Positions 7,292-18,840 are shown, numbered from the stretch's first letter. The stretch: DNA of 64,000 nt from Eubacterium sp. (GCA_021769965.1 JAETRU010000001.1:62001-126000), one strand, 5' to 3'. Notes: generated by a model from the letters alone, not told the origin. Made by a program: numbers and translations.

Positions 7292-8338
7292 TTGAAAAAG
7301 TCAAGATTGATTATCGTTATAATCGTAGCTGTTATTCTGATCGCGGCCGCGGCAGGCTTTGCCGTATACAGCAGCGGCCTTGACGCGGCAGAGCCGGGAA
7401 ATACCGATCCGGTTACCGTGGAAATACCTTCCGGCAGCGGCGCCTCCGCTATCATTGATATTCTGGATGAGCAGGGTCTGGTGAAAAACAGACTGGCCGC
7501 GAAGCTCTGTATCAGATTTGGAGAATATGATTCACTTCAGGCAAATAATTATATTTTCAATAAAAATATGACCCTGAAGGAGATCCTGGAAGCGATCAAC
7601 ACCGGCGATTTTAACTACCTCTCCAAGAACGCCTTTACGATCATAGAAGGAGCGACTGTTCCTCAGGCTGCAGAGGCCATCGCGGAAAAAATGCCTTTTA
7701 CAGCTGATGATCTGAGGAAGAAGTGGAGCGATAAGAAATACCTTCGTCAGCTCATTGATCAATACTGGTTCCTGACTGATGAGATCCTGCAGGATGATAT
7801 TCTGTTCCCTCTGGAAGGCTATCTTTATCCTGAGACCTATTTTGTGACGGCAGAGAACCCTACAGAAGAGGAGATCACAGAAATGCTGCTGGATATGACA
7901 GAGCAGATCCTGTCTGAAAGAAAGGATAAGATCGCGGCTATGGATATGACGGTCCATGAGTTTCTGTCTCTGGCTTCCATCGTGGAGAACGAGTCTCTCT
8001 TTGAGAAGGACAGGCCGGTCATAGCGGGAGTCTTTATGAACCGTCTGGCAAAGGACATGCCTCTGCAGAGCGATATCACAGTCCTTTACGCGATGCAGGA
8101 AAAAAAGGTGGATGTAACCTACAGGGATCTGGAGATCGATTCCAAGTACAATACATATATGTACGCCGGTCTTCCTGTCGGTCCTGTCTGTTCGCCGTCC
8201 GCGGCAGCTATGGACGATCTGATCTCCTATGAGAAGACAGATTATCTGTACTTCTTTGCAACAGAGGACGGAGAGGTCATCTATTCCAAGACTTTAGCCG
8301 AACACGAAAAAGTGGTCGACGAGAATATGTGGTACTGA
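7292..8338 (+). CDS. mltG: Endolytic transglycosylase MltG (YceG-like)
   Basis: N-terminal TM, FPLEGYLYPETY, LASIVENE, LQSDITVLYA, YNTYMYAGLPVGPVCSPS. Confidence 0.93.
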   Translation: MKKSRLIIVIIVAVILIAAAAGFAVYSSGLDAAEPGNTDPVTVEIPSGSGASAIIDILDEQGLVKNRLAAKLCIRFGEYDSLQANNYIFNKNMTLKEILEAINTGDFNYLSKNAFTIIEGATVPQAAEAIAEKMPFTADDLRKKWSDKKYLRQLIDQYWFLTDEILQDDILFPLEGYLYPETYFVTAENPTEEEITEMLLDMTEQILSERKDKIAAMDMTVHEFLSLASIVENESLFEKDRPVIAGVFMNRLAKDMPLQSDITVLYAMQEKKVDVTYRDLEIDSKYNTYMYAGLPVGPVCSPSAAAMDDLISYEKTDYLYFFATEDGEVIYSKTLAEHEKVVDENMWY

Positions 8339-8339
8339 T

Positions 8340-9005
8340 ATGAACATTACAAATGATATAGTAACTTCGTATATTAACAGGCACTACGAGCCGTTAAACG
8401 ATGAACTGGGCGCTCTGCGGGCTATGGGTGAAGCCGACCGGGTCCCTATCATACTGAAGGAAACGGAACAGTGCCTCAGTTTCCTGCTGGCTTTGAAGCA
8501 GCCGGGGCGGATTCTGGAGATCGGTACAGCCATCGGATATTCTTCCATCTATTTCGCTCATCGCTGCCCCCAGGCTGAGATATATACGATAGAAAAAGAT
8601 GAAACGGCCGTTCAGGCGGCAAGACACAATATCGCCGCCTTTGGTCTTGAACCGCGCATTCACAGCTGTTTCGGCGACGGCCAGGAACAGATAGAGAAGC
8701 TGCGGGACGCCGGCATCGACGGTTTTGACTTTGTCTTTATCGACGCGGCAAAGAGTCATTATAAGCGGTTCCTCGACGCGGCTCTTTCTGTCTGCAGGAA
8801 GGATGCGCTGATCGTCAGCGATAACATCCTGCAGAAAGGGATGACGGTCTCTGACCAGTATGATCCCCAGAAGAAACATAAGACAAATATTAAGAAAATG
8901 AGAGAATATGTGGACTACATCTGCAGCAGCCGGGAACTTGAGACCTCGCTGCTCAGTACGGGCGACGGCCTGGCAGTGTCCATTTTTAGAGGTGAACATG
9001 GATAG
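8340..9005 (+). CDS. trmR: O-methyltransferase, YrrM/TrmR family (tRNA 5-hydroxyuridine methyltransferase)
   Basis: ILEIGTAIGYSSIYFA, DFVFIDAAKSHYKRFL, ALIVSDNIL; gene order mltG-yrrM-U32. Confidence 0.87.
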   Translation: MNITNDIVTSYINRHYEPLNDELGALRAMGEADRVPIILKETEQCLSFLLALKQPGRILEIGTAIGYSSIYFAHRCPQAEIYTIEKDETAVQAARHNIAAFGLEPRIHSCFGDGQEQIEKLRDAGIDGFDFVFIDAAKSHYKRFLDAALSVCRKDALIVSDNILQKGMTVSDQYDPQKKHKTNIKKMREYVDYICSSRELETSLLSTGDGLAVSIFRGEHG

Positions 9006-10243: not shown

Positions 10244-11545
10244 TTGAATATGTCATCTGGTCCCAGTAACATACCTTTACAATTGCAGTTTTTCATTATT
10301 GTCCTTACAATAGCTGCCAACGGGCTTGTGGTTCTGGCCAATACGGCCATGAATACCGTAAGCCGGAGCAGGCTGCAGCAGCTTGCCGATGAGGATCAAA
10401 AGGCAGCCCGCCTTGTCGCGTTGCTGAAGCGGCCGACAGATTATCGTTTTACCAACCGGCTGCTCAGTTATATCTTCATCGCCGCAGGGCTGTTCTTTAC
10501 CATCCGGCTGCCATATAAGGATATCGCGTCTATGATCGTCTATGTTGCGGCCTCGATCATCTTCAGTGAATTCTTCACGAGAAAGATCGCGCAGCAGCAC
10601 AGTGAGTCGGTAGCGATAGCCATGGTATCTCTGCAGCGTTTCAACCTGACAGTTCTGAAACCTTTCGTGGTTACGCTGGCGTTTATTGCCAATCTGTTTC
10701 TGAAGATGTTCCATCAGGAGACAGATGTACAATACAGCGGATATTCTGAAGATAAGGTCATGTCCATGCTGGAAGTGGGGCAGCAGAGCGGTGAGATCAA
10801 GGAAGAAGGAAAGAAGATGATCAACAGCATCTTCCAGTTTGATGACGAGCTTGCCTATGAGATCATGACGCCGAGGACAGATGTATTTGTAATAGACGTC
10901 AACGATCCGGCCGAGGAATATCTGGACGAGCTGATGGAGCTGCGGTATTCCAGAATACCGGTCTGCGAGGATGATACAGACAATATCATCGGTATCCTGC
11001 ATATAAAGGACTATCTGATCAAGGCAAGGGAGACCGGTTTTGACAAAGTTGATATCCGCTCTATCCTGAGAAAACCGTATTTCGTACCGGAGACAAAAAA
11101 TATAGATTCACTGTTCTATGAACTGCAGATCGAAAAGCAGCATATTGCCGTGCTTATAGACGAGTATGGCGGGTTTTCCGGCATCGTGACCATGGAAGAT
11201 ATTATTGAAGAGATCGTCGGCGATATCGACGATGAGTACGATCAGGAAGAACACATCATCGAAAAGATTGACGATAATCATTATCTTGTCGACGGAAATG
11301 TGTCCCTCAACGATCTCAGCGAGGAGACCGAGATCGATCTGGAATCAGAGAGCAGCGAGACTATCGGCGGATTTATCATCGATATTCTGGGCGAGATACC
11401 GGAAGAGGGCGACGAAAACCGTGATATCGAGTTCGAGAATTACGTATTTACCATTCTGTCTGTCAAGGAGCGGAGGATCGAGAAGGTGAAGGTCTTCATC
11501 AGGCCGCCTGCTCCGGAGAATGATGAGGATGAAAATGAAGGATAG
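10244..11545 (+). CDS. CNNM/HlyC-CorC family membrane protein (DUF21-CBS-CorC_HlyC)
   Basis: N-terminal TM helices, IMTPRTDVFVIDV CBS pair, DEYGGFSGIVTMEDIIEEIVGDI. Confidence 0.88.
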   Translation: MNMSSGPSNIPLQLQFFIIVLTIAANGLVVLANTAMNTVSRSRLQQLADEDQKAARLVALLKRPTDYRFTNRLLSYIFIAAGLFFTIRLPYKDIASMIVYVAASIIFSEFFTRKIAQQHSESVAIAMVSLQRFNLTVLKPFVVTLAFIANLFLKMFHQETDVQYSGYSEDKVMSMLEVGQQSGEIKEEGKKMINSIFQFDDELAYEIMTPRTDVFVIDVNDPAEEYLDELMELRYSRIPVCEDDTDNIIGILHIKDYLIKARETGFDKVDIRSILRKPYFVPETKNIDSLFYELQIEKQHIAVLIDEYGGFSGIVTMEDIIEEIVGDIDDEYDQEEHIIEKIDDNHYLVDGNVSLNDLSEETEIDLESESSETIGGFIIDILGEIPEEGDENRDIEFENYVFTILSVKERRIEKVKVFIRPPAPENDEDENEG

Positions 11546-14084
11546 ATATGTAACGGTCGGTATTCTGGCTCATGTGGACGCCGGTAAGACGACACTTTCA
11601 GAATCGATCCTCTACACACAGGGCGTCACCCGGTCTCTGGGCCGCGTAGATCACGGCGACGCTTTTCTGGATACTCACGCCCTTGAGCGGCAGCGGGGTA
11701 TCACGATCTTTTCCAAACAGGCTGTTTTCCCTCTGGGCGGTCTGGAGGTGACCCTTCTGGACACGCCGGGCCATGCTGACTTCTCGGCGGAAATGGAACG
11801 TACACTGCAGGTGCTCGATTATGGGATCCTGGTCATCAGCGCCACTGACGGCATCACCGGCCACGTGCAGACGCTCTGGAAACTTTTGGAGACCTACAGC
11901 GTGCCGGTCTTTGTCTTCATCAACAAAACAGATCTGGCCGGGGCAGATCCCGCAGGAGTTCTGAACCAGCTTGCGGAAGGCTTCAGCGACGGCCTGATAT
12001 CCTTTGAACAAATAGACGGAGACTTCTTTGAAAAAGCAGCGCTTTGTGATGAAGCCGCTCTGGAGATGCTCCTTGACAAAGGGACCATCGAAGACGATAT
12101 GCTGCGAAGGCTGATCCTGCAGAGAAAGCTGTTTCCTGTCTACAGCGGCAGCGCTCTGAAGATGGAAGGCGTACAGCGGTTTCTCGACGGGCTGGCCCGG
12201 TATATGGAAGAACCCGCGCGGCCTGAGGATTTCGGAGCGAGAGTCTATAAGATCAGCAGAGACAGTCAGGGCAAACGGCTGACCCATTTGAAAATAACAG
12301 GCGGGACCCTTCACGTGCGGGACGCCGTAGGAGAAGAAAAGATCACGCAGCTCCGTATCTACAACGGAGCTCGTTTTGATGCTGTGGATAGTGTCTCCGC
12401 AGGTCAGGTTTGTGCTGTATGCGGCCTGGAATCCACCAGCTGCGGTCAGGGACTGGGCGTTGAAGCCACAGGCTCCAAGCCGAAGCTGGATACGATTCTT
12501 TCCTATCAGGTCCTGCTCCCTGACGGCTGTGACGCTCACGACGTCTACGGCAGATTCCGCATGCTGGAAGAGGAGATACCTGAGCTTCACACATGCTGGG
12601 ACGAAGCTTCACGCCAGATCAGGATCCAGCTTATGGGTGAGGTCCAGATGGAGATACTGACTGATCTGGTACGTGAGCGATTCGGACTTTCCATCGAACT
12701 GGGGCAGCCGACCATCAACTATAAGGAGACCATTGCTAAAAAGGCCGAGGGCGTCGGTCACTTTGAGCCTCTCCGCCATTACGCGGAGGTCCATCTGATC
12801 CTGGAGCCCCTTCCTGCCGGCAGCGGGCTGGTTCTGGATACGAACTGCAGTGAAGATCTGCTGGATCGAAACTGGCAGAATCTGATCCTGACTCATCTGG
12901 CCGAGCGGGAACATCCCGGCGTGCTTACCGGTTCACCGATCACGGATATGAAGATCACTCTGGCAGCAGGCAGGGCCCATGTCAAACACACAGAAGGCGG
13001 AGATTTCCGTCAGGCCACTTACAGAGCTGTGCGCCACGGACTTCGCCGGGCTGAAAGCGTTTTGTTAGAGCCGTATTATGACTATACGCTGTCGGTGCCC
13101 GCAGACTGCATCGGCCGTGCCATGAACGATCTGCAGCGCATTGCAGGTTCCTGTGAGCCGCCTGTGACCCAGGGCGATACAGCTGTTCTGACGGGAAGAG
13201 CGCCGGTCGCGGCCATCGGGGAATACGCTAAAGAAGTTTTGTCCTATACAAAAGGATACGGAAATCTGCAGCTGACCTATGCCGGATATTTTCCGTGCAG
13301 GGATGCGGACGCGGTCATTTCTGCCAGAGGTTATGATCCGGACCGCGACCCGGACAATCCGTGCGGCTCCGTGTTCTGCAGCCACGGCGGCGGGATCAGC
13401 GTGCCGTGGGATGAGGTGGAAAGCTATATGCACCTTCCTGCCTGTCTTGCGGAGACAAAAGCAGCGGCGGAAGAGACCGTCCGGCGGACGGGACGGCGTG
13501 AATACAGTGACGCGGAGCTTGAAGCGGTATTCCGTCAGACCTATGGTATCAGCAAAAGAGAACAGAATCGATTTAAACGCAGCTCCAGAGTGGTGACCGG
13601 CTCTGCCGCGGACAGGTATCCGAAAGTGAAGAGCGGCTACAATGACAGCAAGGCTCCGTCTGTACTTCTCATCGACGGATATAACGTGATATTCGCATGG
13701 GACGAGCTGAAGGAGATGTCGAAGCTGAATCTGGAAGCGGCCAGAAGCCTTTTGATCGAAACGCTGCAGAACTATCAGGGTTATACAGGCGAGGCCATGA
13801 TCCTGGTCTTCGACGCGTACAAGCAGGTGGGAAATATCGGCATGACGGAAAAATACGGCGAACTGACCGTGGTCTACACCAGAGAAGGGCAGACCGCCGA
13901 TCAGTATATTGAAAAATATGTGCTGGAAAATGTGAAAAAGCAAAAGATCACTGTAGCGACCTCTGACGGACTGGAACAGATGATGATCTTCGGACAGGGC
14001 GCGCTGCGAATGCCTGTTCGCGAGCTGCAGGAGCGCGTGTTATCCGCCAGCCGGGAGATCCGGGAAAGGTATCTGGGAAAATAA
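11520..14084 (+). CDS. TetM/EF-G-like translational GTPase fused to C-terminal YacP/Rae1-type NYN endoribonuclease domain
   Basis: G1 AHVDAGKTT, G3 LLDTPGHADF, G4 FINKTDLAG; C-terminus VLLIDGYNVIFAWDELK...LVFDAYK...ADQYIEKYV...VATSDGLEQMMIFGQGALRMPVREL. Confidence 0.92.
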   Translation: MMRMKMKDRYVTVGILAHVDAGKTTLSESILYTQGVTRSLGRVDHGDAFLDTHALERQRGITIFSKQAVFPLGGLEVTLLDTPGHADFSAEMERTLQVLDYGILVISATDGITGHVQTLWKLLETYSVPVFVFINKTDLAGADPAGVLNQLAEGFSDGLISFEQIDGDFFEKAALCDEAALEMLLDKGTIEDDMLRRLILQRKLFPVYSGSALKMEGVQRFLDGLARYMEEPARPEDFGARVYKISRDSQGKRLTHLKITGGTLHVRDAVGEEKITQLRIYNGARFDAVDSVSAGQVCAVCGLESTSCGQGLGVEATGSKPKLDTILSYQVLLPDGCDAHDVYGRFRMLEEEIPELHTCWDEASRQIRIQLMGEVQMEILTDLVRERFGLSIELGQPTINYKETIAKKAEGVGHFEPLRHYAEVHLILEPLPAGSGLVLDTNCSEDLLDRNWQNLILTHLAEREHPGVLTGSPITDMKITLAAGRAHVKHTEGGDFRQATYRAVRHGLRRAESVLLEPYYDYTLSVPADCIGRAMNDLQRIAGSCEPPVTQGDTAVLTGRAPVAAIGEYAKEVLSYTKGYGNLQLTYAGYFPCRDADAVISARGYDPDRDPDNPCGSVFCSHGGGISVPWDEVESYMHLPACLAETKAAAEETVRRTGRREYSDAELEAVFRQTYGISKREQNRFKRSSRVVTGSAADRYPKVKSGYNDSKAPSVLLIDGYNVIFAWDELKEMSKLNLEAARSLLIETLQNYQGYTGEAMILVFDAYKQVGNIGMTEKYGELTVVYTREGQTADQYIEKYVLENVKKQKITVATSDGLEQMMIFGQGALRMPVRELQERVLSASREIRERYLGK

Positions 14085-14401: not shown

Positions 14402-14431
14402 AGAACTTTACAAAGAAATAAATCAAACTGA

Positions 14432-14462
14432 CAGAGCATGCGCGTTTCATGCTCTGTTTTTA
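14432..14462 (+). terminator. Rho-independent terminator upstream of spoIIIAA
   Basis: CAGAGCATG-CGCGTTT-CATGCTCTG then TTTTTAT. Confidence 0.82.
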
Positions 14463-14484
14463 TATTCCGCGGTCAAAAAAATTA

Positions 14485-14535
14485 TCATATCTGCCTGTCC
14501 TGCGAATATGATGTTAGAGAAAGAAAGGACAGGCA
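14485..14535 (+). promoter_or_regulatory. Candidate sigma-E promoter and inverted-repeat/SpoIIID-like site upstream of spoIIIAA
   Basis: TCATATCT - N12 - AATATGAT; IR TGCCTGTCCT (14492-14501)/AGGACAGGCA (14526-14535), AAGGACAGGC fits WWRRACARNY. Confidence 0.4.
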
Positions 14536-14539
14536 AACT

Positions 14540-15421
14540 ATGAACCATTTTGAAAAAGTCTTTCAGTGCTTTCCGCAGGACATTCAGCGGCAGATACAGA
14601 CTCTGGACCGGACTATGAGAGAGGGCATTGAAGAAGTAAGGGTATATCGGGGCCGGCAGGTATGGCTTCTGTGCCGGGGCAGACATATCCGGCTGAACGG
14701 CTGCATCGACGGCAGCGACATCACCAATATTCTCAACAATCTTCTCAAATTTTCCTATTACGCGTATGAAGACGATCTGGCAAAGGGATTTGTGACTATC
14801 GACGGCGGCCATCGGGTAGGGATCTGCGGCAAAGCTGTGATGGAAAAGGGCAGCGTCACGCTGCTCCGCGAGATCAGTTCTCTGAACATACGCTGCGGCC
14901 ATGAGATCATCGGCTGCAGCGATCCGCTGAAACCGCTTCTGATCAAAGGGGACGGCAGACCGGCCAGCCTGCTTATAGTTTCGCCGCCGGGCTGCGGCAA
15001 GACCACCATGCTGCGGGATATTGCCAGAACTCTGGGTGAAGAAGGCGGCTGGAAGATCGCCATATGTGACGAACGTTCTGAGATCGCGGGGATGCACGAC
15101 GGCGTCAGCAGCTATCGTCTGGGATCCATGACCGATGTGTTAGACGGCTGTCCGAAAGCAGAAGGGATCCTCATGCTGATCCGCGCCATGTCGCCGGATG
15201 TGATCATCACCGATGAGATCGGCAGGCCTGAAGACGGAGAGGCCATCAAAGACTGCAGAAACTGCGGCGTCAGCGTCATCGCCAGCGCCCATGGCAGCAA
15301 TATGGAGGACATTAAAAAGCTTCCTATAGCCGGAATCATCGAAAACGGAACTTTTAATCATATCGTGTTATTAACGAACCGTCCAACTGTTGGAACTATA
15401 CGGGAGGTCCTTCATGATTAA
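14540..15421 (+). CDS. spoIIIAA: Stage III sporulation protein AA (ATPase)
   Basis: SPPGCGKTTMLRDIAR Walker A, ICDERSEIAG, DVIITDEIG. Confidence 0.95.
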   Translation: MNHFEKVFQCFPQDIQRQIQTLDRTMREGIEEVRVYRGRQVWLLCRGRHIRLNGCIDGSDITNILNNLLKFSYYAYEDDLAKGFVTIDGGHRVGICGKAVMEKGSVTLLREISSLNIRCGHEIIGCSDPLKPLLIKGDGRPASLLIVSPPGCGKTTMLRDIARTLGEEGGWKIAICDERSEIAGMHDGVSSYRLGSMTDVLDGCPKAEGILMLIRAMSPDVIITDEIGRPEDGEAIKDCRNCGVSVIASAHGSNMEDIKKLPIAGIIENGTFNHIVLLTNRPTVGTIREVLHD

Positions 15422-15935
15422 AATAGCGGGACTGTCTCTGGCTTTTGTGGCAGCTGCAGCGACAGGCATGATGAAAGCGTCGGAGATACGCCGCCGCAGG
15501 CAGCTGCTGGAAGAATTTCGGGATCTTATCGCCCACATCGCCACAGAGATCAGCTATTTCAAAGAACCTCTGCCGCAGATCTTTGCGAGACTGACATCCG
15601 GCGACAACAGAGAGACCTCTGTTTTACTGCGGTCTGTTATAACGTCCTACAGAGATGGATCCGCCGCGCTGTCGCTGCAGCAGATGTGGGATCAGGGCAT
15701 AGATCTGGTCTATGAGAAAAGCCCTTTGACAGCGGAGGATATCTCCGTCATGAAAAAATGCGGCCAGTTTCTGGGGCAAAGCGATTTTCGAGGCCAGCAG
15801 GATCATTTTCGGCTGCTGGACGGCCAGCTTGTGCGGCAGCTTTCTGAAGCAGAGGATGCCATCAGAACAAAAGGACGCATGTATTCGCGTCTTGGAGTCT
15901 CCGTCGGACTGGTCATCGTCATCGCTTTGATATAG
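15414..15935 (+). CDS. spoIIIAB: Stage III sporulation protein AB
   Basis: Position in operon; RRRQLLEEFRDLIAHIATEISYFKEPLPQIF; C-terminal TM. Confidence 0.9.
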   Translation: MIKIAGLSLAFVAAAATGMMKASEIRRRRQLLEEFRDLIAHIATEISYFKEPLPQIFARLTSGDNRETSVLLRSVITSYRDGSAALSLQQMWDQGIDLVYEKSPLTAEDISVMKKCGQFLGQSDFRGQQDHFRLLDGQLVRQLSEAEDAIRTKGRMYSRLGVSVGLVIVIALI

Positions 15936-15965
15936 AATGCGAAACGCAGAAGGGAGGAACCGAGA

Positions 15966-16160
15966 TTGGGTGTAAGTGTCATATTTAAAATAGCAGCTAT
16001 CGGCATCTGTATCGCGCTTTTAAATCAGCTGCTGATCAAATCGGGCAAAGAGGAGATGGCTATGATGACAACGCTTGCCGGGGTGATCATCGTGCTTGCT
16101 ATCATCGTCAAGATGCTGATGGAATTCTTTGATACTATCAAGGTCTTTATGGAGTTTTAA
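15966..16160 (+). CDS. spoIIIAC: Stage III sporulation protein AC (TTG start)
   Basis: 64-aa two-TM protein in operon; IFKIAAIGICIALLNQLLIKSGKEEMA. Confidence 0.92.
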   Translation: MGVSVIFKIAAIGICIALLNQLLIKSGKEEMAMMTTLAGVIIVLAIIVKMLMEFFDTIKVFMEF

Positions 16161-16164
16161 AACT

Positions 16165-16548
16165 ATGGAAATACTGAAGATAGCGGCGCTGGCGCTGTGC
16201 GCGGTGATGCTCATCGTGCTGGTGAAAAATTACAAACCGGAATTCGGCGTGTTTACAGCCATAGCCTGCAGCGTTCTGATCCTGTATTTTCTGGCAGACA
16301 GTCTGAAATACGCTTTTGCCTATATGTCACAGCTCTACGGACAGCTGTCACTGGGAAAAGCATATTTTCCAGTCATCATCAAAGTGCTGGCCATCGCATA
16401 TATCACAGAATTCACTTCGCAGCTGTGCCGGGACGCGGGAGAAGGGTCCATCGCCTCAAAGGTGGAGCTGGCAGGAAAGGTCATCATATTCTGCGTGGCT
16501 GTCCCGGTCTTCATCTCTATCCTGGAGCTGGTGGAACTGCTGCTTTAA
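16165..16548 (+). CDS. spoIIIAD: Stage III sporulation protein AD
   Basis: Membrane protein, LLKNYKPEFGV-like segment, operon position. Confidence 0.92.
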   Translation: MEILKIAALALCAVMLIVLVKNYKPEFGVFTAIACSVLILYFLADSLKYAFAYMSQLYGQLSLGKAYFPVIIKVLAIAYITEFTSQLCRDAGEGSIASKVELAGKVIIFCVAVPVFISILELVELLL

Positions 16549-16569
16549 TACAAAGAGAAGAGGAACCAT

Positions 16570-17658
16570 ATGAATTTTGATGAAGTTGTAAAGGAACAGA
16601 TGAAAAAAATCGTGGATCAGGAAGAGATCGGCTCTCTGGAAGATTACGCGGATCAGCTGTCAGGCGGGATTTCAGATCACTTTACACTGGAAAGCATTCT
16701 GGACGCTACTTTATCAGGTAAAAGCATCTTTCAGTCCCAGGACATCATCGACAGCCTGAAGACCCTGCTGCTATACGAGGTCAAAGGCGCTTTGATCATC
16801 GGCGTAGAGATTCTGACTGTCTGCATTATCATTGGTCTCCTGAAGAATCTGTCCGGTTCCTTCGGAAGAAAAGGAACAGCTGATATCGCGTCTCTGATCT
16901 GCTGTATTGTCATCGTAGGCCTTGCTATGACAAGCTTTCAGGATATCTATGAGATGACGCTGGACGCTGTCAGGACCATTACATATACCATGGAGATTCT
17001 GCTTCCCGTACTCATCGCGATCCTTATATCCATGGGACAGGTGGCTTCCGGTACTATTATGAGTCCTCTGCTTCTGACAGCAGTGACCATTTTCCAGACC
17101 ATTATCAAAAATGTGGTTCTGCCGGCAGTTTTTCTGTCTACCGTGTTCTCCCTGCTCAACTGTTTAACGGAAAAAGATTATGTAAACCAGCTGTCAAAAT
17201 TTCTGAGACAGGCGGCATTGTTCGTCACAGGTATCATCATCACTCTGATGACGGGTATCATCGCCATTCAGGGGCTGATAGCCAAAACCAGCGACAGTCT
17301 CATCGTAGGCACAGCCAAGTATTCACTGGACTCGTTTATTCCTATCGTAGGCGGTTTTGCTGCCGATACAGTAGAGCTGTTCATCAAATGCATGGGATCG
17401 ATCAAAAGTGTCATAGGTGTCTTCGGCATTCTGTTGATCCTGTGTCTGATCCTGACCCCGATCATCAAGATCCTGGTCATCTCTCTGATCTACAAGGTTA
17501 CAGCGCTGCTCGTAGAACCAGTAGCATCAAAGAAACTGGCGTCCGGCATCGCGGATGTGGGGAGCTGTCTGATCATCATGGGAAGTGTGCTTTTTTTCGC
17601 GTCACTCCTCTTCATCATCTTCATCACATCTATTATCAGTCTGGGAGGCAGCGCATGA
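16570..17658 (+). CDS. spoIIIAE: Stage III sporulation protein AE
   Basis: Multi-TM, 362 aa, operon position. Confidence 0.93.
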   Translation: MNFDEVVKEQMKKIVDQEEIGSLEDYADQLSGGISDHFTLESILDATLSGKSIFQSQDIIDSLKTLLLYEVKGALIIGVEILTVCIIIGLLKNLSGSFGRKGTADIASLICCIVIVGLAMTSFQDIYEMTLDAVRTITYTMEILLPVLIAILISMGQVASGTIMSPLLLTAVTIFQTIIKNVVLPAVFLSTVFSLLNCLTEKDYVNQLSKFLRQAALFVTGIIITLMTGIIAIQGLIAKTSDSLIVGTAKYSLDSFIPIVGGFAADTVELFIKCMGSIKSVIGVFGILLILCLILTPIIKILVISLIYKVTALLVEPVASKKLASGIADVGSCLIIMGSVLFFASLLFIIFITSIISLGGSA

Positions 17659-17825
17659 GCACGGTCACAGAATGGGTGAAGGACATCTTCATCGTTATAT
17701 TATCTATAACCTTTATTGAGATCCTGATGCCGGAGGGAAATATGGCAAAATACCTGAAGTTTATCTTCTCCATCATAGTCCTGGCAGTGATTTTATCTCC
17801 CATCAGTGATTTCGTTCATAAATAG
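17655..17825 (+). CDS. spoIIIAF: Stage III sporulation protein AF, severely shortened (56 aa, TM part only)
   Basis: MSTVTEWVKDIFIVILSITFIEILMPEGNMAKYLKFIFSIIVLAVILSPI matches the SpoIIIAF N-terminus; stop before any soluble domain. Confidence 0.85.
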   Translation: MSTVTEWVKDIFIVILSITFIEILMPEGNMAKYLKFIFSIIVLAVILSPISDFVHK

Positions 17826-17860
17826 AGAAAATTTTCATAGGTATAAGAAGAGAGGGTACT

Positions 17861-18235
17861 ATGTTTGAAAGACCTGAAATCAGAAAAGAAACCATGGTAA
17901 AGATCATCGGAGCTGTTATTGTCGCTGCAGTTTTTCTGCTTACGATCAGCATACTTACAGACAGCCACGACAGCCGCAGACAGATATCCGATGATGATGG
18001 TGCTACAGAAAGCGCCTTATGCAGCTTTCTGTCAGAGATCAAGGGGGTGGGTGATGTCAATGTTATGATCCGGTACGGCGGGGAAAGCAAAGTCAGCGGC
18101 GTCATTGTCACCGCTCAGGGCGCGGAGGATCCAGTGGTCAGAACCAGCATTGTCAAAGGCGTTTCCACTCTCTTTGACATCCCGGCGTCCAGCGTTATGG
18201 TATTTGAAAAAAATCAGGAGGAAAAGACAGAATGA
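17861..18235 (+). CDS. spoIIIAG: Stage III sporulation protein AG, short form (124 aa)
   Basis: TM then ALCSFLSEIKGVGDVNVMIRYG...GVIVTAQGAEDPVVRTSIVKGVSTLFDIPASSVMVFEK. Confidence 0.9.
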   Translation: MFERPEIRKETMVKIIGAVIVAAVFLLTISILTDSHDSRRQISDDDGATESALCSFLSEIKGVGDVNVMIRYGGESKVSGVIVTAQGAEDPVVRTSIVKGVSTLFDIPASSVMVFEKNQEEKTE

Positions 18236-18840
18236 AAAAAAGAAAATTGGATATCAAAGGATTTTTGAATAAAAAAGAAAATGTAGCCATCATGGCTGTA
18301 GCGGTGATCTTCTGCGCCGGTCTGGTGGTGACCAATGTGAAATCAGGAAAGATCCCGCTCCACGACGGCGATGTGCTGGTAGACAGCCAGAATGTGGCTC
18401 AGGCTGTCGATCCGGAATCAGAAGATGGAGATACAGGGGCAGGGGAAGACACAGCCGCTAAAGCCGGAGACTCTGACGATGAGGATGCCTCCGGTGGAAG
18501 CACCTTTGCCGAAAAGCGGGCAGCTCTGGAACTGGAACGCAATGATCTGATCGCCAAGTATGACGATACGATCAAAAACTCCAGTAATGACGCGGAAAAG
18601 AAAAACGCGGTGGCCCAGAAGGAAAAACTGACAGGCTACATGGAGCAAGAGGTCGCGATCGAGGGCATCATCAGTACCAAAAATCTGCCGGAATGCCTGG
18701 TCATTATGACAGACAGCACCGTAACGGTAACGGTAGACGAGCAGGATCTGAAGCAGAACACAGTAGCCAAGATCTGCAATATCGTCATGGAAGAAACAGG
18801 CCGCACGGCCGACAAGATCATCATACAGAGCAGCTATTAA
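18232..18840 (+). CDS. spoIIIAH: Stage III sporulation protein AH
   Basis: N-terminal TM, YMEQEVAIEGIISTKNLPECLVIMTDSTVTVTV; end of operon. Confidence 0.92.
   Translation: MKKRKLDIKGFLNKKENVAIMAVAVIFCAGLVVTNVKSGKIPLHDGDVLVDSQNVAQAVDPESEDGDTGAGEDTAAKAGDSDDEDASGGSTFAEKRAALELERNDLIAKYDDTIKNSSNDAEKKNAVAQKEKLTGYMEQEVAIEGIISTKNLPECLVIMTDSTVTVTVDEQDLKQNTVAKICNIVMEETGRTADKIIIQSSY

Follow-up and report, generated by a model that had tools for sequence, protein, structure and literature searches.

A YacP/Rae1 nuclease domain fused to an EF-G-like GTPase in Eubacterium and related Clostridia

In Bacillus subtilis, the gene yacP sits by rlmB and sigH, and its product Rae1 is said by its discoverers to act inside the A site of the ribosome. 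To our knowledge, how Rae1 reaches the A site and picks paused ribosomes is unsettled. The enzyme is described as a ribosomal A-site endoribonuclease (PMC6613710; PMC12320835) and cleaves mRNA in a translation-dependent manner (PMC10100781). NYN domains were first predicted to take part in rRNA and tRNA maturation (cited in PMC4342817). The fusion of such a domain to a GTPase was already published in 2015, when Tet proteins with a YacP-NYN domain were reported from ten Clostridiales and a role in antibiotic resistance was suggested (Atkinson 2015; PMC4342817). No later work on the fusion was found in the literature searched, the original Rae1 papers falling outside that search.

The gene described here lies in a 64,000-nucleotide stretch of DNA from Eubacterium sp. 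(JAETRU010000001.1:62001-126000, hereafter “the window”). Like the 2015 fusions, it encodes a Tet/EF-G-type GTPase with a C-terminal YacP-NYN domain in a member of the Clostridia. In contrast to the ten species of that report, the present samples contain the fusion in well over a hundred genomes, it has replaced the stand-alone Rae1, and its GTPase is placed in a clade apart from TetM and TetO with domain IV loops of its own. The mutual exclusion and replacement of Rae1 and the results on the GTPase subfamily are apparently new.

Architecture of the fused protein

The fused gene was translated as one reading frame without a break (Table 1). Its exact start is uncertain by up to five codons because four ATGs share the frame (11520, 11523, 11529, and 11535), all of them inside the 3' end of the upstream CorC/HlyC-like gene. 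The overlap between the two genes, together with an order that is kept in the nearest relatives (loci L006-L008), suggests that they are co-expressed. A conserved gene neighborhood was also considered as a clue to function and was set aside, since in the neighborhood comparison only the nearest relatives had the neighbors seen in the window.

Table 1. Features of the fused gene and its upstream neighbor (positions counted from the first nucleotide of the window).
Feature	Position	Strand	Basis
CorC/HlyC-like CBS protein gene, upstream	10244..11545	+	Named from sequence; 3' end overlaps fused gene by 26 bp
Fused gene, EF-G/Tet-like GTPase, linker, and YacP/Rae1 NYN, 854 aa	11520..14084	+	ORF call, Pfam
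G domain, residues 9-230 (AHVDAGKTT, RGITI, DTPGH, NKTD, GSAL)	11544..12209	+	Pfam (GTP_EFTU, residues 9-230, 1e-47), alignment, motifs
EF-G domain II, residues 239-312	12234..12455	+	Under Pfam cut-off; EF-G-like fold in model
EF-G domain III, residues 347-395	12558..12704	+	Under Pfam cut-off
EF-G domain IV, residues 397-511	12708..13052	+	Pfam (EFG_IV, residues 397-511, 4e-18), alignment identity
Domain IV loop III, GRAHVKHTEGGDFR (TetM: GLYYSPVSTPADFR; EF-G: GSYHEVDSSEMAFK)	12969..13010	+	Loop comparison
EF-G domain V, residues 514-595	13059..13304	+	Pfam (EFG_C, residues 514-595, 3e-17)
Cys/His module, residues 593-645 (C593, C620, H622, H638)	13296..13454	+	Alignment
Variable linker, residues 646-713, ~68 aa	13455..13658	+	pLDDT, alignment
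YacP/Rae1 NYN nuclease domain, residues 714-854	13659..14081	+	Pfam (NYN_YacP, residues 716-851, 2e-47), alignment, 5mq8 match

The GTPase half has the features of the EF-G/EF2 family, namely GTP_EFTU, domains II to V, and intact G1-G5 motifs, with D81, P83, G84, and H85 invariant in 49 relatives. GTP_EFTU, EFG_IV, and EFG_C, like NYN_YacP, scored far above their Pfam cut-offs, and domains II and III (EF-G_D2 and EFG_III) were detected with scores just under theirs and take the EF-G fold in the model. The closest matches among solved structures were TetO/TetM over residues 10-593 (1.7e-74) and, in the NYN region, B. subtilis YacP (5mq8/5mq9; 4.5e-28). An AlphaFold model built with the 49 relatives as input (mean pLDDT 84.8, pTM 0.65) shows an EF-G-like body, a disordered linker, and a folded NYN domain, and its top PDB matches by Foldseek were EF-G structures. 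The linker has a pLDDT below 50 along most of its length, with low-confidence stretches at residues 646-663 and 675-708, and a mean pairwise identity of only 0.20; the model leaves the placement of the NYN domain relative to the GTPase unfixed.

The NYN half scored 162 bits against a cut-off of 24.6 (PF05991). Residues D719, N722, D765, T787, D794, and D816 are invariant in the NYN domains of the 49 fused relatives, and the catalytic acids (D719, D765, D794, and D816) and N722 of the window protein also match 5mq8. The match stops at Pfam position 138-139 of 166, so that about 28 profile positions, a C-terminal tail of about 30 residues, are absent. The sequence-only reading had described a single 854-aa ORF joining a TetM/EF-G-like GTPase with intact G motifs to a complete NYN domain; the frame and the GTPase are as it stated, and the NYN domain is complete in its catalytic residues but not at its C-terminus. 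Relatives were matched at 68 loci in named genomes, and about 65 of them show the identical architecture within one readable ORF, which rules out a sequencing artefact or a chance ORF. These fused loci are mostly from Lachnospiraceae and Oscillospiraceae, with two from Longicatena (Erysipelotrichaceae).

The missing tail is common among fused proteins. On a 170-position model, 31 of 38 fused NYN domains stop before position 160 and 7 retain the tail, whereas all 20 stand-alone domains reach position 167 or beyond; fusions outside the window's class, in the phylum sample, also retain the tail. In B. subtilis Rae1, the substitution R166P and a deletion at nt 469-473, both in the tail region, behave as loss of function (PMC6613710). 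The loss of the tail would be understandable if docking had passed to the GTPase, which fits the 31 truncated members, although the 7 others and the out-of-class fusions run counter to it.

Fused and stand-alone NYN_YacP genes

The class sample comprised 243 genomes of the window's class, of which 160 have NYN_YacP, and matches were listed for 149. The domain was classed as fused in a frame of at least 800 aa, as stand-alone in a frame of at most 216 aa, and as partial in between. Among the matches listed for these 149 genomes, 81 were fused, 61 stand-alone (at least one of which, in G338, belongs to a fused gene truncated where its contig stops), and 7 partial, and no genome had both a fused and a stand-alone form, whereas about 22 such genomes would be expected by independence. 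The hypergeometric probability of this exclusion (P ~5e-15) serves as a guide only, because the genomes are related by shared ancestry. Apparent cases of co-existence were rejected, the second hits being matches below the cut-off (~21 bits), a second fused copy (G247), or fragments at contig edges. The fused gene is widespread and mostly single-copy in the class sample, and a profile search of the window's genome found the fused NYN_YacP as the sole one. Outside the class, the phylum sample showed a predominance of stand-alone yacP, rare fusions, and one NYN_YacP per genome.

That genomes with the fusion would lack a stand-alone yacP had been predicted from the window alone; the prediction holds, and the rlmB-sigH loci agree with the domain counts. 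At 20 stand-alone loci, yacP adjoins rlmB, sigH, or both in all but one. The window's genome has the order cysE-cysS-mrnC-thyA-dfrA-rlmB-sigH with no yacP between the last two genes, which overlap by 11 bp (rlmB 7875-8783 and sigH 8773-9414 on L108). Among 16 other fused genomes checked, none had an NYN domain near rlmB, and rlmB was still beside sigH in 10. In one fused genome, G143, a broken yacP lies in the rlmB-sigH gap, its homology divided between two frames (E 5e-17, compared with 0.006 for the best of 50 shuffles), and a weaker remnant was found in G226. In G176, a genome congeneric with G143, the stand-alone yacP is intact and nothing matches the fusion-type GTPase.

Such loss and decay are what one would see if a stand-alone gene had become dispensable through the fusion. 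Judged from these comparisons, the fusion has replaced stand-alone Rae1 one-for-one, and the replacement and the decaying copy, which are the best evidence on this point, fit a protein that performs Rae1's work. The fusion is likely a housekeeping mRNA-cleavage factor on ribosomes. It shares the NYN fold and the catalytic acids with B. subtilis Rae1 (5mq8, 5mq9) and fills the only NYN_YacP slot of its genome, but Rae1 is a stand-alone protein of about 170 aa encoded in the rlmB-sigH operon, whereas the NYN domain of the window lacks the tail and is carried on a GTPase encoded elsewhere.

Alternatively, the GTPase may bring the NYN domain to ribosomes or 30S subunits to act on rRNA or tRNA, either in maturation or in cutting defective or hibernating particles. 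This would recall the original prediction for NYN domains, and an EF-G-like body could reach many sites on the ribosome; we nevertheless regard it as very improbable, as the characterized relative, B. subtilis Rae1, cuts mRNA during translation and the fused domain stands in for exactly the Rae1 gene.

Carriage as mobile cargo was considered and rejected. Coverage of at least 80% of the query was reached at just two places in the 1,261 plasmid records that gave a match; the one that was examined belongs to a 518-kb Monoglobus replicon. The full fused gene also occurs in two faecal records named “UNVERIFIED Bacteriophage sp.”, which are probably bacterial DNA.

The GTPase subfamily and the origin of the fusion

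Within the fused family, conservation is highest in domain IV (mean pairwise identity 0.71); the G domain reaches 0.55 and the NYN domain 0.50. The loops of domain IV, HFEPLRHYAEVHL and GRAHxKHTEGGDFR, are shared by the fused and the unfused proteins and differ from those of TetM/TetO and of EF-G. The fusion GTPase resembles EF-G in its fold, its G motifs, and a His at the corresponding place of loop III in most members of the subfamily, but differs in the sequences of loops I and III. It is colinear with the five-domain GTPases TetM and TetO over residues 10-593, with only about 29-30% identity, and differs from them in every domain IV tip loop, in the C-terminal Cys/His module, and in the NYN domain. 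The Cys/His module, a possible metal site, also ends the unfused GTPases and is absent from TetM/TetO and EF-G.

The window protein has AHVKHTEGGDF where TetM has YSPVSTPADF, as the sequence-only reading had noted in arguing against simple tetracycline protection, and the loop comparison and the curated tet_protect model (NF012153) bear out both points: the fusion reached 397 bits, far below the cut-off of 775 and close to the score of EF-G itself. According to the 2015 proposal, a Tet-type protein would release tetracycline or a different A-site drug from ribosomes, the RNase activity being an extra. The proposal has in its favor that TetO and TetM are the closest solved relatives, that related unfused copies are annotated as TetM-family, and that the GTPase clade adjoins Tet on an EF-G-rooted tree, although this kinship is not secure on a quick tree rooted with three EF-G rows. 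The low score and the divergent tip loops speak against it, as does a gene that is mostly single-copy and widespread and overlaps a housekeeping gene in the window, and three genomes (G144, G153, and G165) have the fusion plus a bona fide tet gene above the cut-off. Drug protection of this kind is therefore improbable as the role of the fusion, and tetracycline protection in particular appears unlikely. Since the GTPase has its own domain IV loops, scores at the level of EF-G, and co-occurs with a true tet gene in some carriers, it is probably best seen as a separate translation factor, whose tip may be tuned to something at the decoding center. The window's genome also encodes a separate EF-G in a 696-aa frame.

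Members of the GTPase subfamily also occur free of the NYN domain, as proteins of 640-655 aa that end in SVFC.(H/K)G..(15-20 aa).MH(C), just before the place of the linker in the fused form. They share the domain IV loops and the Cys/His module (e.g., L142, L144, L148, L149, and L188-L193), and the first four are 43-46% identical to the window GTPase. Some of their genomes have a separate yacP (G235, G303, G282, and G325), and in others (G147, G152, and G194) the matches include no NYN_YacP. Judging by the latter, the GTPase has a function independent of the nuclease.

In the tree of the GTPase part, the whole subfamily forms one clade (SH-aLRT 100), which divides into a group of ten unfused chromosomal sequences (90) and a group that unites 42 fused sequences with a plasmid copy from Ligilactobacillus (93). 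The plasmid copy nests among the fused sequences and lacks the NYN domain. In the NYN tree, 19 stand-alone domains are set apart from 39 fused ones (support 100/100). A lone NYN domain of G356, located outside the rlmB operon, nests among the fused ones, and an unfused GTPase is encoded elsewhere in that genome, which reads as a later fission or exchange. The sequences show a separate GTPase subfamily that existed before the fusion. The trees fit, without proving, a single fusion followed by vertical and horizontal spread and rare splits.

The same observations bear on whether the two halves are mechanistically coupled at all. Two working enzymes, a GTPase active on the ribosome in a role of its own and an NYN domain in that of Rae1, may have been fused solely for co-expression or for general proximity to the ribosome. 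Unfused GTPases with the same domain IV, a long, variable, and disordered linker, the plasmid copy without NYN, and the apparently split pair of G356 would all suit such an arrangement. On the other hand, the fused state is kept across dozens of sampled families with both halves conserved, and some fused members, including that of the window, lack the Rae1 tail as if the GTPase took over docking. We consider the absence of coupling rather unlikely.

Proposed action on the ribosome

The reading that we favor, which we hold to be evenly balanced between right and wrong, is that the GTPase-carried Rae1 is the only Rae1 of the cell and acts as a ribosome-dependent A-site mRNA endonuclease with hand-over by the GTPase and rescue by tmRNA. 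This is close to the sequence-only reading, in which the GTPase delivers a nuclease to stalled or particular ribosomes; that idea is plausible and partly supported, being strengthened on its Rae1 side, while GTP-driven delivery is conjectural. The GTPase would bind paused ribosomes in which the A site stands open or is wrongly filled, and the conserved, His/Arg-rich tip of domain IV would probe or clear the decoding center. Upon GTP hydrolysis, which would time the hand-over, the GTPase would withdraw, and the NYN domain, on its flexible tether of about 68 residues, could then cut the exposed mRNA in or beside the A site. The truncated complex would pass to tmRNA rescue (trans-translation), and a tmRNA gene is present in the window's genome. 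The ribosome binding, the nuclease activity, the GTP-gated hand-over, and the substrate are inferred, whereas the fusion, the intact motifs of both halves, the replacement of stand-alone Rae1, and the tmRNA gene are seen in the sequences.

A difficulty not raised in the sequence-only reading is that, if Rae1 works inside the A site, domain IV and the NYN domain cannot occupy it together; the A site would then have to pass from one to the other, or the fusion would have to work on a different ribosome or at a different site. This exclusion counts against the favored reading, as do the missing Rae1 tail, the unfused GTPases of genomes with no NYN_YacP among their matches, and a model that leaves the NYN domain unplaced relative to the GTPase.

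In its full form, the protein would be a GTP-gated mRNA endonuclease in which the GTPase senses stalled ribosomes by its new domain IV tip and passes the A site to the tethered Rae1, a single-polypeptide enzyme of ribosome rescue and mRNA decay that would serve as the standard Rae1 of a large part of the gut Clostridia. We put this forward tentatively, with somewhat more doubt than belief.

A sizeable group of genes, which may be automatically annotated as TetM-family resistance, probably consists of housekeeping translation factors, and this matters for resistome counts. In many Clostridia, evolution has joined Rae1 to a GTPase expected to bind at the A site too, and their union in one protein makes the question of how Rae1 reaches the A site and picks paused ribosomes testable.

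Copies in plasmid and phage-labelled records

An unfused GTPase of the same subfamily is encoded on a Ligilactobacillus salivarius plasmid. This GTPase groups inside the fused sequences and, because it is nested amongst them, its NYN domain was probably lost secondarily. Two records carrying a complete fused gene are labelled "UNVERIFIED Bacteriophage sp." in GenBank and are probably bacterial DNA within a virome set.

Features and their coordinates (L, locus with its own numbering)
Feature	Location	Record or remark
Unfused GTPase	L153 3983-5917	plasmid pLS2102-15_1
Complete fused gene	L202 5397-8009	MT835563
Complete fused gene	L203 5883-8414	MT835514
Fused gene split by frameshift	L061 6001-8795	MAG
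Broken stand-alone yacP	L214 2251-2833	genome G143, rlmB-sigH interval
Lone NYN, fused type	L150 8787-9308	genome G356, outside rlmB operon
Unfused GTPase	L193 1987-3936	elsewhere in G356
C593/C620/H622/H638 pattern	window 13296-13433 (residues 593-638)	3' of domain V part
Terminator-like stem	window 14430-14458
spoIIIA sporulation operon	window 14438-18840	named from sequence

Gene remnants, fission and duplicates

Genome G143 carries the fusion as well as a broken stand-alone yacP, and in G176, a member of the same genus, yacP is intact and the GTPase is absent. The lone NYN and separate GTPase of G356 represent an apparent fission. Two distinct fused genes occur in a 61% complete genome (G247; C16 and C48), and the frameshift at L061 reflects either sequencing error or decay.

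Gene neighborhood and a putative metal site

The spoIIIA operon is the immediate downstream neighbor of the fused gene in the window, separated from it by the terminator-like stem. The Cys/His pattern, C-terminal to domain V, is conserved and is possibly a metal site. The plasmid-borne GTPase is neighbored by rpsN (S14) and a "putative metal homeostasis" gene, a metal context that may be linked to the Cys/His module.
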